Shown here piece by piece: positions 53,929-61,573 of a DNA stretch of 64,000 nt. Source of the stretch: Victivallaceae bacterium (GTDB lineage Bacteria; Verrucomicrobiota; Lentisphaeria; Victivallales; Victivallaceae); assembly GCA_024405735.1 (NCBI GenBank), contig JAKSOF010000003.1, positions 1 to 64,000 on the forward strand, written 5' to 3'. The notes below the pieces were generated by a model, which worked only from the letters and a program-made list of their open reading frames with translations, had not been told where the DNA came from and did not search any database. How positions within the stretch are numbered: the stretch's first letter is position 1; every line of letters starts with the position of its first letter. A program made the translations under genes and the position numbers.

Positions 53929-55971
53929 TCATATTTCCGGGACGCCGATTTGTTTTAAATACTGATAGGTTCCGTCGTAAAATTCAGGCAGACGGGTGGC
54001 GTCGGCGGGGTTGCCTTCGGGAACGCAGAGAACCATTCCCTGACGCGCCCGCGTCAGGAGAACTCGATAGGCGTTGATCTGATAGGCCTTGCGCTCCGGA
54101 GAATTGATGTTTTCCCATGCGTTGCCCTTGAAGGAATAGTTTTTCCAACTATTTGCAACGCGACGCAGGTCTCCGTCCCAAACAATGCACGTCCAATCGA
54201 GCTCCAGCCCTTGAACATCAAATTCAGATGCGGCATCTTCCAAAAAAACCGATGACCGGATATCGGAAATATCGTCGAGGAACCAATGCACCGTGTCCGG
54301 CTTGCACCGAACATCAATTGCCAACGGTCGCAACCGCTGCGCTTGCGAGGATACGACCATACCGTAACGTTCACTGCCACGCGCTTGCTTGCGTAACCAC
54401 GCTTTGGCTTTGTCGAGATCACGCGTCAGGACGATCGGGTACTTGTCGCGCAAAGTTTCATAAATCGGTTTGGCCTGCGAGATATTTCCTTCCAGCAGGT
54501 GATGCACAAAAGTCGAAAGCTGTTCCGCACGGAAGGAACGCATCGAAACGGCAAGATGCAAATTTTTACTGCGTGTAACGTTCGGAATCTGTTGTAGCAA
54601 TGGCTCTAATTCGCCTTCCGCATACTCCTTGCCGGTCAATTGGTCGGAAATATAGACGTTCCACGACGGAAAGTTGGCTTGGATCGCACGCAACCACTCT
54701 CCGATGCCGGCCTCGCCAGTGTTGATTTCTTGACCGCCGCCAACCAAACAGACGATTACCGCCCAGTCCTCGCGCAAGTTCAACGACCAAATCAAAAATT
54801 CCGGTTCCGACATCGGGAAATCGGGAAGATTTTGTTTCCGATGTAACCAGTTCGCCAACTGATTTTTCGTCCAAGCGCGCTGAGCTTCATCAAAAATTGC
54901 GACATGTTCGACTTCGGAATAGCCGTCATCATCGTGGCGTGCGACCTTGGTCGGATCAATTTCAAGCGTTCCGTTTTGAATAGGACGTTTGAGTTTTGCC
55001 AACGAAGCACTACGATAATGGTGGACAATCTGAATAAATGACTTCACATCACGCCGCGCGGTGGTGAGATTGTAACGTGTTTCAGGATGAAGCTTTTCCT
55101 CTTGGCGCTTTTTGTCGCGAGCGAGCGCTTCGCTCAGTACCGAGACCAACGGCTGATTTCCGGAAAGATAAACCGCGAGATCTTTTTTCTCGAACTGGCG
55201 AACCGCGATATTGAGGCCGACCAACGTCTTCCCCGCTCCGGGGACACCGGTAACAAAGCAAATCGATTTTTCGTGACGCGTGCGCGAACGTTCGATAACG
55301 TCAATCACGAAATCGCTAGTCGCCTTTAAGCTTTCTCCGGAAGCCTCGGTGCGTGTGATGTCTTCCACGGAATGATTCAAATAAAGAGAACTTGCCGCCT
55401 GAATGATTGTCGGCGTCGGCATATAGCGGCTGAGCGTCCAAGATCGAAGATCCTGAGTACTCGCGTATTTTTTGCTGATATTTTCGATGATTTGTCCGAG
55501 CTGACTGGCATTGCTCATCATGGGTTCAAAGACGAGATCGTCATATACGCTGAAATCCTGCGTCGTCGACGATTCCGGGGCATCGGTCGCAACGAGGATC
55601 GGAACGATGACAGCATTTTTGCTTGCTTCGTGAAAGTTTTTCAGATCAAGGGCATAATCCCAAACCTGCTCCACATCGGCGCGATAATAATCATCGGCGC
55701 CCACCTTAAATTCCAATACAAAAACGATGCCGTGGAGCAATAAAACGACGTCGATGCGCTTGCCCAAACGTGGGATGGAATACTCAAAAACGATTTCGCC
55801 GTCGCTTTCGTGCGCAAGCAAACGTTTCAGCAGTTCGATCTCATAAACCCAGGAGTTCCGCTGTTGATCGACAAGATCAAACGAATTTTCAGACGCAAGT
55901 TTTCCCAAGATGCTGTTCGCATCTTTCTCCACAAACGCAGCAACACTATTCCGATAAAAGAACCGAGTCAT
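53929..55971 (-). CDS. PD-(D/E)XK nuclease fused to DUF2075 helicase
   Basis: 680 residues. The N-terminal 150 residues hold a nuclease core: Glu44, Asp74 in KRIDVVLLL and the ExK in VLEFKVG (Glu87, Lys89). The rest is a DUF2075/Schlafen-like SF1 helicase: Walker A GVPGAGKT (242-249), Walker B IFDEAQ (360-364), and the later SMRSFRAEQL and NAYRVLLTRARQGMVL motifs. Such proteins occur in defence islands. It is 23 bases downstream of the PIN/Mrr-like gene, with a TATAAT in between. No ribosome binding site is obvious. Confidence 0.85.
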   Translation of the reverse strand: MTRFFYRNSVAAFVEKDANSILGKLASENSFDLVDQQRNSWVYEIELLKRLLAHESDGEIVFEYSIPRLGKRIDVVLLLHGIVFVLEFKVGADDYYRADVEQVWDYALDLKNFHEASKNAVIVPILVATDAPESSTTQDFSVYDDLVFEPMMSNASQLGQIIENISKKYASTQDLRSWTLSRYMPTPTIIQAASSLYLNHSVEDITRTEASGESLKATSDFVIDVIERSRTRHEKSICFVTGVPGAGKTLVGLNIAVRQFEKKDLAVYLSGNQPLVSVLSEALARDKKRQEEKLHPETRYNLTTARRDVKSFIQIVHHYRSASLAKLKRPIQNGTLEIDPTKVARHDDDGYSEVEHVAIFDEAQRAWTKNQLANWLHRKQNLPDFPMSEPEFLIWSLNLREDWAVIVCLVGGGQEINTGEAGIGEWLRAIQANFPSWNVYISDQLTGKEYAEGELEPLLQQIPNVTRSKNLHLAVSMRSFRAEQLSTFVHHLLEGNISQAKPIYETLRDKYPIVLTRDLDKAKAWLRKQARGSERYGMVVSSQAQRLRPLAIDVRCKPDTVHWFLDDISDIRSSVFLEDAASEFDVQGLELDWTCIVWDGDLRRVANSWKNYSFKGNAWENINSPERKAYQINAYRVLLTRARQGMVLCVPEGNPADATRLPEFYDGTYQYLKQIGVPEI

Positions 55972-55994
55972 AATTAGCCAAATAGGGTATTATA

Positions 55995-58208
55995 TCATGG
56001 AATAACATCTTCATTTGCACTAAATAAATTATCCATATAATGCTTTAGCCCTCTAGAACCTCGTTGTTGAAATTCTGCTTTTAATTGGTCGATTTTGCGA
56101 TGAATTATCGTTCTAATTCGAGACAGTTTATATTCATCATACTGTTTGATGCACTGACCGATTGCCTTGGTAAAACCATTGTCAATATGGCGAGACAAAC
56201 TAATCCCCAAGGTATTGGGAAAAATATTATCATATGCATTTTCAATCTCTCTTTTCTGTGGTGATAGCGTGATGAAATTCAACAAGAAATCCGGTCTTAT
56301 ATAACAACTGGTCCCATAGTTATGCCCCAAGCATTTTTCTACAGCTGCAAATGTTGTGGTGTCTGTAGACAACCACCAAGAACGATATCCCAACACGCCA
56401 CAATCGCTGTCTTCTCCATCAACATTTCGTTTAGTATAAATCATCAAAATTGTTTTTGCATCATTTAAAGCTTGTTGTCTAGTCGGTTTAAGTTTCTCAA
56501 GATTGTCTGTTAGCAATTTTAATTCGCCTTCGTCAATCTTGGTCAGCAAATCTTGTTCTCTGCTAGAAAAATCAATACCAAATTCATTTTTTAAAAATTC
56601 CTTTAGTTCTTGTTTCTTCATCGACCATTTAGCATTCGGATCTACAAATTCGTCGACGTATCTGTAAAACGATAACTGCGGATTGGATAATCTGTGGTAA
56701 AAAAATCCACGGATAATAATACTATCTATATGGGATATTATCTCTCTGTCAGTGTACAACGACTCGTTTCCGGCGTAATAAGTTTCATATTCTCTTATTT
56801 TATTCTCAATATGCTGAACAATTTCCTCTAAAATCGAAGTGTTTATGTAAAACTTCACACCAGCAGTACGAGCCATTCTTAACAAATTCCACAAGCGACG
56901 ATTCTTTTCTGGCGCTCGTATTTCTGCCAACGCAGGAATAAGGATAGAGCTACAAACATATACTTCTAATTTATTGGCAACAGTTTGTAAATATTGCGCA
57001 ACCTTTGGTTCTGCTTGCAACATAAACAACGTCATATATGTTTTGGACAATGCAGACAAATAATTTTTTTCTTCATCTTTCGGCGAATAAATAATTGTTC
57101 GTATTATGCGAAATAATAACTCGCATAATAATTCTTGCTTTTGTTTTGTTTGTGTTTTGAGTTTCTCTGCTACTACACTAGTAATAATTGATGGCAAATC
57201 CTGTGTAATTCTTTGAGATGGACGATTGTTTAATACGAAACTAGAAAATTCGTAGCCGCTGTTTTTAAATATATTGTTGAAAACAAAGATAATATTTTCT
57301 GTGATTTCATCTGCTGTGAAACAGTCCCCCATTTGATATTCAGGTAAACGTTCTTTTATACATTTGCGAAAACACATCAGCATTGCTTCGTCATGCAAAT
57401 TGCATTCTTGAATTGTTTTTCTTGTTTGATACGGCAAGCAATATGCATCTTCTTTGGCGTGATGATTTATTTTTCTTGGCTTTGTTGATAAAAAATCAAG
57501 CCGTTTTGTAAATAACTCTTCATCAATGCGAACAGGAACGATTCCTTTTATTTTGTCAAAAATTTTTTGTTTTGTCAGAAAAATGTTTTTATCAGGGTCG
57601 GTTCCCTCTAGAGCAAAAATAATTATACTGTCTAACACGAAATCTTGTAATTTGTCAATTGAATCTGCATTATCCAGTTGTTGACGTAAAAATATAAAAA
57701 TGCGGGGATCGCCGTCAAAATCTTGGATAATACGAGTTTTCCCTATCTGTTCAAATTCATAATAGTAACGATCTAAGAATGAATTAAATACACGGGCGCA
57801 TCTTTCATCGCTAATCTGTCCACATAACCATTTTAAGTCATAAGTTTGTAACATGACATGATATTTTTTAAACGCTTCTGTTCGGAGTTTATCATGTTGC
57901 GTTATAATACCATTTGTTACAAAGCGCAATTCGTCAAAAATTATATTGTTTTTTTGTAATTTATCAAGCGTATTGTAAATTTTAGATGCACTTTCATCTA
58001 TTGAGATTTGATATATAATTCTATAATCTTCATTTTTATTAGCTTCCCATAGCATTGCATCTATACCAAGGTCATGAATACCACCGACAGGGATCAAATC
58101 TGATCCTAAAACGGCGCAAAGAAATTCTTGCGCAAAAGATTCGAATATTTTTCCATCATTAATAATACTGACAACATGTTCAAAATATTTAGGATTGATT
58201 TGTTCCAT
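55995..58208 (-). CDS. Large AT-rich protein with Mrr-like N-terminus and PIN-like domain
   Basis: 737 residues; ATG after GGGAGTCAGCC. Residues about 20-130 resemble a restriction endonuclease-like fold of the Mrr kind: FESFAQEFL, GGIHDLGIDAML (Asp50), YQIS (Gln67, with Ser69 in place of the lysine). Residues about 413-620 resemble a PIN-type nuclease: VYVCSSILIPALAEI, where the first acid is Cys419, then TSILEEIVQHIE, NDAKTILMI and WWLSTDTTTF. The rest is helical. Base composition is markedly AT-rich. Its neighbours suggest an anti-phage role. I know no named family with this pairing. Confidence 0.65.
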   Translation of the reverse strand: MEQINPKYFEHVVSIINDGKIFESFAQEFLCAVLGSDLIPVGGIHDLGIDAMLWEANKNEDYRIIYQISIDESASKIYNTLDKLQKNNIIFDELRFVTNGIITQHDKLRTEAFKKYHVMLQTYDLKWLCGQISDERCARVFNSFLDRYYYEFEQIGKTRIIQDFDGDPRIFIFLRQQLDNADSIDKLQDFVLDSIIIFALEGTDPDKNIFLTKQKIFDKIKGIVPVRIDEELFTKRLDFLSTKPRKINHHAKEDAYCLPYQTRKTIQECNLHDEAMLMCFRKCIKERLPEYQMGDCFTADEITENIIFVFNNIFKNSGYEFSSFVLNNRPSQRITQDLPSIITSVVAEKLKTQTKQKQELLCELLFRIIRTIIYSPKDEEKNYLSALSKTYMTLFMLQAEPKVAQYLQTVANKLEVYVCSSILIPALAEIRAPEKNRRLWNLLRMARTAGVKFYINTSILEEIVQHIENKIREYETYYAGNESLYTDREIISHIDSIIIRGFFYHRLSNPQLSFYRYVDEFVDPNAKWSMKKQELKEFLKNEFGIDFSSREQDLLTKIDEGELKLLTDNLEKLKPTRQQALNDAKTILMIYTKRNVDGEDSDCGVLGYRSWWLSTDTTTFAAVEKCLGHNYGTSCYIRPDFLLNFITLSPQKREIENAYDNIFPNTLGISLSRHIDNGFTKAIGQCIKQYDEYKLSRIRTIIHRKIDQLKAEFQQRGSRGLKHYMDNLFSANEDVIP

Positions 58209-58253
58209 GGCTGACTCCCTCTCTTATAGACTGCAAACGTTGATAGTTGTTTT

Positions 58254-58379
58254 TTAATCTTTTGATTGTTTATACACGATAATGCTTGCGCAGAATGATG
58301 TTAAGATATATCCTAGTACCCTAACCGTTTCCCATAATTTTTTTCGCTCTTCATCCAAATAATTATATTGATCAGACAT
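58254..58379 (-). CDS. 41-residue single-pass membrane peptide, first gene of the putative defence operon
   Basis: ATG 58379 follows AAAAGGAG with a seven-base spacing, the best ribosome binding site nearby. The sequence is MSDQYNYLDEERKKLW, then one hydrophobic helix (VLGYILTSFCASIIVY), then KQSKD. It ends 45 bases before the start of the 737-residue gene, same strand and similar AT-rich composition. A consensus-spaced promoter lies upstream. Small membrane effectors accompany many phage-defence operons; that role is inferred. Confidence 0.75.
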   Translation of the reverse strand: MSDQYNYLDEERKKLWETVRVLGYILTSFCASIIVYKQSKD

Positions 58380-58417
58380 AGCATTCTCCTTTTTTGGCTA
58401 CTTTGTCCATTTGCAGT

Positions 58418-58446
58418 AATATAATTGAGTTTTTCAGATGATGCAA
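58418..58446 (-). promoter_or_regulatory. Promoter of the three-gene defence-type operon
   Basis: On the minus strand TTGCAT (58441-58446), a 17-base spacer, and TATATT (58418-58423). The start site would be about 30 bases upstream of the small peptide's ATG. Confidence 0.7.
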
Positions 58447-58932
58447 ATAACTTTGGATGAATTTGCAAAAATTAATTATTTTATAAATATAATTAAATCG
58501 CTCCGACCTCCGAGAGTGGAGACCGGAGCGGGGGTTAGATCGTTAAAAACCAATGGTGGTTGCAGGTGCGGCAGCGGTCGCACTTTGTTTTTCTGAACCA
58601 ATCATCCATTTGCAGTCAGTTTTACTCTTGTGCTGAAAATCTGTTTCGCTGATTAGACTGACGGAGCCCGAGATGGTTCGTGGCAAGCACGATGGGACGT
58701 CGCACGATAATGGTTGCTCATTCCCGGCAGTGCCGATTATGAAGAGAAGAAAGCCGAATGCTTCTATTGGAGCTCCTATTCAGGAAAAGAAAAACGCCGA
58801 ATCCTTAACGGATCCGGCGCGGAATTTTTGGTAGCGCAAGATCGAAAAATCTAAAACAGGGGGTGAGAGAACGGTAATTTTTTGCCGATTTCTCCATGTT
58901 TTTATCTCCGTCGTCCTTCACTTTTCGGCATG
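58447..58932. other. Gap between abiEi and the defence-type operon
   Basis: About 490 bases with no confident gene. It holds a hairpin at 58499-58530 (CGCTCCG/CGGAGCG with an inner paired segment), a terminator at 58786-58819, and a 30-codon frame (58805-58897, minus) with CGGAG ahead of its ATG. It has no AbiEii-like coding sequence. A plus-strand frame of about 50 codons near 58674 lacks support. Confidence 0.55.
58786..58819 (-). terminator. Terminator downstream of abiEi
   Basis: On the minus strand CGCCGGATCC pairs with GGATTCGGCG (one G-U or mismatch) and is followed by TTTTTCTTTT. It ends the abiEi transcript about 110 bases after its stop. Confidence 0.8.
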
Positions 58933-59568
58933 TCAGCGACGAACGATGTCACGACCATCCAGTAAGGTGTTGACGAGTTTCCGCATCCGGCCGATTGATG
59001 AATCCCGAAGTTTGTGGAGCACTTCGACATTGAGCTGCGAAAGAGACTCTTCGTCCAAGCGCAGATCTGCCAGCAGATATTCCTTTATATTGATCCCGTC
59101 GAAACGGGGATCGGTCAGCGCCTTGTCGTAAATCGCCTTCTCCCGTGATGCGATCAGAAAATTGCCGGATGGAGTTTCCACGGAGTCGATCCCGATGGAG
59201 TAATCCTCTGCCTTCCGCTGGCGGTAGGAGAAGCAGCCGATCGGTGTGGAAAACTCCCTCGTGCGGCCGATCGTCATGGAAGTTATCAGCTCGACTCGTT
59301 CCGGGATCATACCGTAATAAGAGAGCGCATAATCGCAGCTGACATAACTCGGACCATAAATCATATTGGCGACGATACACGGATTCAAGGGCGAACGACG
59401 CAGGTATTCGGGGAAGGTGTAAAGTCCCTTCTTGATCCGAATGATCTCCCCGGATGCCAGCAGACGTCCGATCTTTGTCCGGATATTGCTGAAATTGGAC
59501 AACACATCGGAAAGCTGAACGTAATCGAAGATGTCGTTCTGAATTTTTAGGCGCAGATTGTTTGCCAT
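58933..59568 (-). CDS. AbiEi-type antitoxin/regulator, partner missing
   Basis: 211 residues, close to the family's length. AbiEi antitoxins of type IV systems have a winged-helix N-terminus, seen here in the region ending IIRIKKGLYTFPEYLRRSPLNPCIVANMIYGPSYVSCDYALSYYGMIPERVELITSMT (motifs at about 41-98; the LYTFP and SYVSxxxALSYYGMIPE signatures are clear). Normally the abiEii nucleotidyltransferase follows and overlaps; here only a terminator follows. The promoter is overlapped by a strong palindrome, consistent with autorepression. Confidence 0.88.
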   Translation of the reverse strand: MANNLRLKIQNDIFDYVQLSDVLSNFSNIRTKIGRLLASGEIIRIKKGLYTFPEYLRRSPLNPCIVANMIYGPSYVSCDYALSYYGMIPERVELITSMTIGRTREFSTPIGCFSYRQRKAEDYSIGIDSVETPSGNFLIASREKAIYDKALTDPRFDGINIKEYLLADLRLDEESLSQLNVEVLHKLRDSSIGRMRKLVNTLLDGRDIVRR

Positions 59569-59576
59569 AGATCACC

Positions 59577-59603
59577 AGTATGTATCGTTTTTCGATACTT
59601 ACT
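59577..59603 (-). promoter_or_regulatory. Operator palindrome at the abiEi promoter
   Basis: Arms AGTATGTATCG and CGATACTTACT are complementary over 11 bases with one mismatch around TTTTT. The palindrome overlaps the minus-strand -10 TATAGT (59601-59606); TTGATT (59623-59628) lies 16 bases further. AbiEi proteins bind inverted repeats at their own promoter, so this is a likely autoregulatory site. Confidence 0.7.
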
Positions 59604-59896
59604 ATACATTCATCTCCCGAAGAATCAAGCCATCGTGAGGTTGTTTTGTGTAAATTCGGAAGTTGTGGTTCGGAAATTACACACATGGCTGGGGGCTAAC
59701 TCTCGGAACAACGAAGGATATTTCAATCGAAAAATGCAATCTACGCTGGCGACCTGAAGCGATCCGGCGATCCTGCAGCCATAAACTTCCGAGATACCGC
59801 AGGGATCATCCCGAAATAACTTTTGCCTCCGCCTCTCCGCGTGTGGTCATCGCCAGTATGAATCGAATGTTAATGTTGCTCCCCATGATGGGGGGA
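59604..59896. other. Gap between abiEi and the TOPRIM-like gene
   Basis: Apart from the abiEi promoter I see no gene or strong structure in this stretch of about 290 bases. It separates two same-direction minus-strand genes. Confidence 0.5.
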
Positions 59897-61573
59897 TCAG
59901 GCGGGGGATAAGATTGATTCGATAACATCAAATATTAGAGAAAAATTTGAAATATCAAATTTGTCAAACCCGGGTTCTCCGTCATAAATTTTTTTGGCAA
60001 AAGTATATTTTGAATGTGCTACTTTGTTGCCGTGATCATCTTCAATAAGATCACAGCAATCATCATAAATATATTTCATATATTCATCGGCAATATTAGG
60101 ATTGCAAAGACGGACAAAAGATTGATGCCTATTCGTTGTTTTGTTTTTTTCAATAGTTTCTTTAACTTGATTGGAAAATAAAAGGCGGCGCTTGCTGATT
60201 GGATCAGGTGTCCCGATTTCCTCATCCGTATAATAGAATTCTATGGATAACCTTTTGTACTTTTTTCGGTGAGGAGGCGATGGTAAGCAAAATGAGAAAA
60301 CGTTGTTTCCCCAACACTTAAAGTTCTTTCCATGTTCGCTCATTTCTCGTATTATTCTGGCATTATCTGCATCTGCAATAAAAATAACAGGCCGTTCCTG
60401 GGGAACCTTTGCGTATTCTTTGCACATTCGCAGCATGGCTTCATCGCCAAGATTTTCTGTGTTTTCCCAAAAAGAAAGAAGCATATTCGGATAGCGTCCC
60501 ATCCTTTTGAAATGACGGTAGGCGTTTTTTATATGCATCCAGTCAGTCTTGCCTTCTGTTACTATTAGAGGTTTGCGTTTTTCGAATCGCGCCTTCAGCG
60601 AGGCTATTTCTGCATTATTCAAGGGCAAATGATTTCTATATTTTGAATATATTTCTCCCAAGCGAAGTGCAGCAGCGGCATACGCGTTCCAGACCTTAAA
60701 TGACTCTTGAAGCCAGTTTTTTTCGGGGTTGTGGTGCCTGTTAGAGAACAATCTATCTTGTATAATTGCTGCATAATCTAAAATGAAGGTCATATTTTGA
60801 GCATAATCTGGCCAGGTTTCTGAGACTTCAATAATTTGCTCTCTTATGGTTTGACTTTTTTCTGTCTCGGGATCGTCAACGATGGTTGACGCAAACCACA
60901 TGTCACAAAAGAACCCGCCGCATTGCCACATTTCTGCCAAAACGTCACAGGCTATCTCGTGCTCCTGAAGCAATCTTTCTGTAATTAAAATAGTGGCATA
61001 AATTATTGCTTCAACATTTTCTTCAAGCGTAGGATATTTGAAGTCATGCTCCAATTCTACTTCGGCTTTCATGCGGCGATACGTCGCCAGAATCTGCTTC
61101 AAAACAAAAGCCGCCTTCAACCCGTCTTTGTTTTGCTCCTTTTCATTATCAGACATCGCGGAAAACGGTTCGGATGAATAAATGGAATCAATGATGGTTT
61201 GCTGCGCAAGATATTCAGGTTTATGTTCTTTTATGAATCCATTGAAAAGCAACGTGCCCTGACGTAAAATTTCTTCCTGGTTTTCATTTTCACATGCCGT
61301 GAAAAAACTCTTGACAACCCGAAGGGCTGCTTTATAGCTTATGTCGTCTTCCGCGTCCATGTCAGACGGCAACAATTTGTCTTTAAAAAAACTATAATAG
61401 TTTGCTTCGGTGCCATCCATACGGCTGTACGGCCAATCGCCGTGAATGTCTTTGTCTTCAAACGGCAAGTCCCCAATGACCAAATGTTCCACCAGTTTTC
61501 TGACAGCATGTCCGGCCGCCAACGACATAAGAAGAGCTTTAATAGCCTCGGGGGATAAAATCTGATCACTCAT
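59897..61573 (-). CDS. Helical protein with C-terminal TOPRIM-like domain
   Basis: 558 residues, not a family I can name. Residues 1-320 are helical. From about 334: KPLIVTEGKTDWMHIKNAYRHF (Glu340, Asp344), then RPVIFIADADN (Asp401, Asp403). This E ... D-x-D pattern is the TOPRIM signature shared by OLD nucleases, DnaG and topoisomerases. It lacks the ATPase domain of OLD proteins. It lies 78 bases downstream of the DUF3427 helicase on the same strand, so the two may work together. Composition is more AT-rich than that of housekeeping genes here. Confidence 0.68.
   Translation of the reverse strand: MSDQILSPEAIKALLMSLAAGHAVRKLVEHLVIGDLPFEDKDIHGDWPYSRMDGTEANYYSFFKDKLLPSDMDAEDDISYKAALRVVKSFFTACENENQEEILRQGTLLFNGFIKEHKPEYLAQQTIIDSIYSSEPFSAMSDNEKEQNKDGLKAAFVLKQILATYRRMKAEVELEHDFKYPTLEENVEAIIYATILITERLLQEHEIACDVLAEMWQCGGFFCDMWFASTIVDDPETEKSQTIREQIIEVSETWPDYAQNMTFILDYAAIIQDRLFSNRHHNPEKNWLQESFKVWNAYAAAALRLGEIYSKYRNHLPLNNAEIASLKARFEKRKPLIVTEGKTDWMHIKNAYRHFKRMGRYPNMLLSFWENTENLGDEAMLRMCKEYAKVPQERPVIFIADADNARIIREMSEHGKNFKCWGNNVFSFCLPSPPHRKKYKRLSIEFYYTDEEIGTPDPISKRRLLFSNQVKETIEKNKTTNRHQSFVRLCNPNIADEYMKYIYDDCCDLIEDDHGNKVAHSKYTFAKKIYDGEPGFDKFDISNFSLIFDVIESILSPA

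Follow-up and report, generated by a model that had tools for sequence, protein, structure and literature searches.

A 737-residue Victivallaceae protein joining an Mrr/SMEK-like N-terminal domain to a PIN-like domain with cysteine at its first aspartate position

A minus-strand gene of the 64,000-nucleotide stretch analysed here (the window) encodes a 737 aa protein in which a first-pass annotation had read an Mrr-like and a PIN-like domain, both with altered catalytic residues, and this raises the question of whether such a chain still acts as a nuclease, in one half or in both, or has been reduced to binding. The residues on which that reading was built are all present in the frame, codon by codon (D50 GAT, Q67 CAA, S69 TCA, C419 TGT, E461 GAG, E462 GAA, D583 GAT and D616 GAC). 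Cys419, being encoded by TGT, lies at least two substitutions from either aspartate codon and is thus not a one-base error. The gene occurs once in the source assembly (1.89 Mb) and its features are collected in Table 1. The reading that we favour, with a probability of roughly 0.6, is that the protein belongs to a family of self-contained defence nucleases, held inactive, in which the N-terminal domain would act on DNA and the PIN domain on RNA, RNA cleavage by the PIN half having probably been lost in the window copy.

Table 1. Features of the 737 aa gene and of the small frame upstream of it, in window coordinates
Feature	Position	Strand	Basis
Gene for the 737 aa Mrr/SMEK-like and PIN-like protein	55995..58208	minus	ORF with ATG start and no internal stop
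Mrr/SMEK-like PD-(D/E)XK domain, aa 1–150 (E23, D46, D50, Q67-x-S69, K76)	57759..58208	minus	SMEK_N and invariant columns
Ser69 codon (TCA), serine family-wide	58002..58004	minus	codon and alignment
Lys76 codon (AAA), invariant at Q+9, candidate relocated active-site lysine	57981..57983	minus	alignment
Helical middle region, aa 151–400, possible winged helix (lead only)	57009..57758	minus	helices in low-confidence model
PIN-like domain with helical insertion, aa 401–650	56259..57008	minus	weak profile and structure matches
Cys419 codon (TGT), at first PIN aspartate	56952..56954	minus	alignment
Glu462 codon, conserved PIN acid	56823..56825	minus	alignment
Asp583 codon, conserved PIN acid	56460..56462	minus	alignment
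Asp616 codon, conserved PIN acid (one-residue indel vs L002 and L003)	56361..56363	minus	alignment
C-terminal tail, aa 651–737	55995..56258	minus	weakly conserved
41 aa ORF, 45 bp upstream of the 737 aa gene and with a strong Shine-Dalgarno	58254..58379	minus	possibly co-transcribed

A rare family with a common domain order

Five full-length homologues were found, about 20% identical to the window protein, in two genomes of the same phylum, in two further genomes and on enterobacterial plasmids. The same-phylum copies (L002 in genome G211 and L003 in G078) bring the positive genomes to 3 of 388 when the window's own is included. L013, the one homologue recovered by a scan of genome contigs limited to two peptide patterns, lies in a gammaproteobacterial MAG, and L015 lies in G564 (2 of 398 genomes positive, that of L013 included). 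The fifth, P0001, comes from Klebsiella, Escherichia and Citrobacter, in eight plasmid records, and in E. coli 5 of 5,426 genomes carry it, always on plasmids; these plasmid copies were found with the homologues as query and none with the window protein itself. A profile built from the five homologues without the window protein scores the latter at 183.6 bits over residues 17–720, against at most 3.4 bits in 200 shuffles of its sequence, which places the domain claims above chance. All six proteins share the same order, with an Mrr/SMEK-like PD-(D/E)XK domain at the N terminus, a helical middle (for which a sub-threshold linker-histone match was seen in P0001) and a PIN-like domain at the C terminus.

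The window protein matches no family above cut-off in Pfam, PADLOC, NCBIfam or PHROGs, and neither it nor its homologues were convincingly recognised by any defence library. PDB sequence searches gave no credible relative, the Tako8 matches being rejected as repeat artefacts. No relatives were found in the viral contigs, scanned with several family alignments, or in the phage collection; no near relative of the window copy was found, and the accession numbers that we tried led to no paper in the literature. The family is uncharacterised, rare and horizontally spread. If the favoured reading is true, it would add an architecture not catalogued until now, PD-(D/E)XK and PIN in one chain, which is also carried on enterobacterial plasmids and could easily be tested there. 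A C-terminal remnant of a family member, and nothing more of it, was seen on a Gordonia amicalis plasmid (L037:6031-6594), next to a DUF262 gene and an EcoRI-type methyltransferase.

Serine and lysine in the Mrr/SMEK-like domain

At the N terminus, SMEK_N (PF21941) matches aa 60–116 of the window protein at E=1.8e-4 and 21.8 bits, short of its 27-bit cut-off, and Mrr_cat (PF04471) matches four of eight related N-domains (best 3.4e-6), the window protein itself having no Mrr_cat match. The eight N-domains aligned, two of which belong to TPR proteins (L006 and L007), have F22, E23, L30, D46, D50, Q67, S69, K76, D106 and L120 as invariant residues. As in Mrr_cat restriction endonucleases, the order is alpha-beta and the D...Q positions are occupied, with Asp50 at the strand 2 aspartate and Gln67 in the (E/Q)xK of strand 3. 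Unlike in those enzymes, the QxK lysine is missing and Ser69 stands in its place, as the first-pass annotation had it and the codons confirm; the Q67/S69 register requires a one-residue gap, on whose placement the alignments differ.

The conclusion that had been drawn from this serine, namely that the Mrr-like domain may be inactive, is not supported. All eight N-domains have Q-x-S without exception, followed by an invariant lysine 9–10 residues past the glutamine, and the two proteins examined above the SMEK_N cut-off read QVSATGTKQKI and QVTSTMTPKKI, with lysine at Q+9 in each, so that Q-x-(S/T) with a downstream helix lysine is found in two PF21941 members as well as in the window protein. 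Since Ser69 is invariant family-wide and the SMEK pattern is alike, Ser69 alone is no argument for an inactive domain. More generally, within the SMEK-like clade serine is the ordinary residue of the QxK motif, and it should not be taken for the mark of a dead nuclease. The window protein shares with SMEK, which serves as an effector in short-Argonaute defence (SMEK-APAZ), the pattern D...Q-x-(S/T)...K(+9)I, while differing from SMEK-APAZ in its score below the PF21941 cut-off, in having no APAZ and in its fusion to a PIN-like domain. SMEK-APAZ with short Argonaute has been reported to act weakly as a collateral nuclease, on dsDNA as well as ssDNA (PMC12205087).

These observations also bear on the proposal that both domains serve as non-catalytic binding modules in the window copy, which draws on the loss of the first PIN aspartate and on the QxK position without lysine. 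We consider it rather unlikely, given that Ser69 together with Lys76 is the family norm, that D46, D50, Q67 and K76 are all kept, and that the N-domain is similar to SMEK, for which nuclease activity has been reported. The DNase-like half of the window copy may still be working, and a catalytic role of K76 is plausible. A simple account in which the active-site lysine has migrated is weakened by more distant SxK relatives (L043–L045), which have both the SxK lysine and the K76 equivalent; since both are kept there, K76 may have its own role and need not replace the QxK lysine.

Cys419 in the PIN-like domain

In PIN domains the first aspartate is a core metal ligand, and its loss abolishes catalysis. 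The profiles PIN_12, PIN_3, PIN and PIN_4 match family members weakly (best 0.0088), concordantly and in no case above the curated cut-off. All four D-E-D-D acids of the PIN domain are present in each of the five homologues, whose first motif reads for instance LLDTNILIP, LIVDASIIVP or WLDTTI, whereas the window protein has VYVCSSILIP and is the only one of the six with cysteine at this position. The other three acids, E462, D583 and D616, are kept. The first-pass annotation had thus placed Cys419 correctly, and also the later acids, except that of the pair Glu461/Glu462 it is the second residue that the homologue alignment picks out as conserved. Variation at these positions is not free among the homologues; of the 48 columns invariant in the five, the window protein keeps 25. 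Because Cys419 replaces the first metal-binding aspartate, RNA cleavage is probably abolished in the window copy, and the suggestion that its PIN-like part may be inactive gains weight from the loss of the key aspartate in this copy only. That Cys419 instead forms a chemically altered PIN site that is still active, for example with another metal, would fit the retention of the other three acids; we found no precedent for it, and with a core metal ligand replaced we regard it as hardly credible.

The structural matches of the PIN region are weak but concordant. A full-length AlphaFold model of the window protein and the L013 sequence (pLDDT 40) gave no meaningful PDB matches, and a model of the PIN region, made for L013 with the window sequence, reached pLDDT 48, with better values over the first 150 residues. 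For the PIN-region model VapC-type PIN domains take the first five places among the VIA matches, with Z from 4.8 to 3.9 (absence of a family from the VIA list being no evidence against it), and by title 29 of the top 50 Foldseek matches belong to the PIN/FEN superfamily, none of them at E<=0.001; no PDB match of either low-confidence model is significant alone. In the VIA alignments the first VapC residue falls on model residue 13 to 15, which brings model D19 (D423 of L013 and C419 of the window protein) close to D7 of VapC, at which the listed D7A and D7N structures carry their mutation, and on this model Cys419 would map to the first catalytic aspartate of VapC. The family resembles VapC-type ribonucleases in its best structural matches and in the D-E-D-D acids of the homologues; the window protein departs from VapC by its large helical insertion, its long N-terminal part, the lack of an antitoxin and cysteine for the first aspartate.

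Loss of its catalytic residues need not make a PIN domain useless. The precedent is SMG5, whose PIN domain lacks them and still functions by completing the active site of its partner SMG6 (PMC12923823). SMG5, however, is eukaryotic, and no partner of the SMG6 kind is known for the window protein. In the window copy the PIN half, if still acting, would bind or regulate, and if the favoured reading is true the copy offers a natural experiment on whether the PIN half must cut RNA.

Composition, neighbours and proposed action

The 737 aa gene has a GC content of 33.5% and GC3 of 28%, against about 55–60% and 0.55–0.75 for most of the backbone. Among the 29 window genes compared none deviates as far in GC3 and codon usage; the codon adaptation of the 737 aa gene, 0.557, is the lowest (others 0.635–0.854) and its codon-usage JSD of 0.126 the highest (next 0.106). 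The AT-richness against its surroundings that had been noticed is therefore real, and the AT-rich block, from about 55990 to 58510, also includes the 41 aa ORF. Given this foreign composition, and with no homologue found in the genus, family and order as sampled, the gene was likely acquired from elsewhere. Transfer had been proposed to be recent as well, and this part finds no backing: three of the five homologues also have GC clearly below that of their flanks, so that AT-richness may in part belong to the gene itself. The 41 aa ORF occurs in the window copy only and not upstream of the homologues; its product, MSDQYNYLDEERKKLWETVRVLGYILTSFCASIIVYKQSKD, has no Pfam match and a hydrophobic stretch that could be a membrane segment.

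Within a defence island, the gene is flanked by AbiEi and by a PDC-S41 helicase, in a same-strand series of an mREase_IV-type PLD/helicase, a Toprim-containing gene, AbiEi, the 737 aa gene and the helicase, with mREase_IV, PDC-S14 and HindIII-type R-M genes near. Plasmid copies of the family adjoin a TrlF ATPase and L002 adjoins an Mrr-type gene; L013 and L015 lie outside obvious defence islands. From this genomic context we infer a role in defence. In the stretches read no neighbour is common to the six family loci, and the protein thus most likely acts alone. The helicase (53929-55971) is encoded on the same strand and starts 23 bp downstream, a spacing that suggests co-transcription; this, and the standing of the helicase as a defence candidate (PDC-S41), would speak for a system of two genes. 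Such a system is nevertheless highly improbable. Over the stretches read, copies of the helicase, 77% identical, in three related genomes (G135, G016 and G092) have no 737 aa gene nearby, and none of the five homologues adjoins this helicase; the GC content is 50% against 33.5%. We rejected the helicase as a conserved partner. The helicase itself is of Schlafen group 3 (PDC-S41, E=1.3e-269), and its N terminus reads like a PD-(D/E)XK stretch, RIDVVLLLHGIVFVLEFK.

A solo chain with two nuclease-type domains must be quiet in a healthy cell. For DS-3, a PIN defence system made of a single protein (DefensePredictor), auto-inhibition until infection has been proposed (PMC13092281), and we propose the same here. 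Compared by description only, the window protein is like DS-3 a single gene with a PIN domain and no antitoxin, and unlike it in that the PIN domain of DS-3 is split between the N and C termini and no REase-like domain is mentioned. In the self-contained reading, uninfected cells would contain the protein in an inactive state, from which phage or plasmid invasion would release it; the N-domain would then attack DNA through Asp50, Gln67 and probably Lys76, which would stand in for the absent QxK lysine, while RNA would be the target of the family's PIN domain. A narrower version, which we put forward only tentatively, is a single-gene defence family of a SMEK-kind DNase with its lysine on the next helix and a PIN RNase, the PIN domain of the window copy being a non-catalytic regulator of the DNase half.

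The surroundings show decay. The AbiEi gene (58933-59568, minus strand; region 58828-59630) has lost its AbiEii toxin partner: in the same-genus genome G923 (L061) an AbiEii gene (PF08843, E=3.2e-33) comes after an AbiEi that is 90% identical, and by blastn about 845 bp, nearly all of that AbiEii gene, are missing from the window, where the flanks meet near 58960. The 737 aa gene could be decaying likewise, with Asp-to-Cys an early loss-of-function step after acquisition and a protein that now does nothing; the deletion of the adjoining toxin, the single copy and the lack of a relative in the sampled order would agree with this. We judge it unlikely, however, in view of the full-length frame, the good ribosome-binding site and the retention of all other catalytic-type residues.

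Finally, the AT-rich gene at 59897-61573 encodes a 558 aa protein with no Pfam match, whose N-terminal half matches nothing, reverse transcriptase included, and whose aa 322–556 match RT-Toprim_I-C defence models (best 2.7e-29). Past the window end (L019:2769-8244) lie PDC-S14 (DUF4357), a 719 aa protein that may be a GHKL ATPase, and a HindIII-family endonuclease paired with an N6/N4 methyltransferase.
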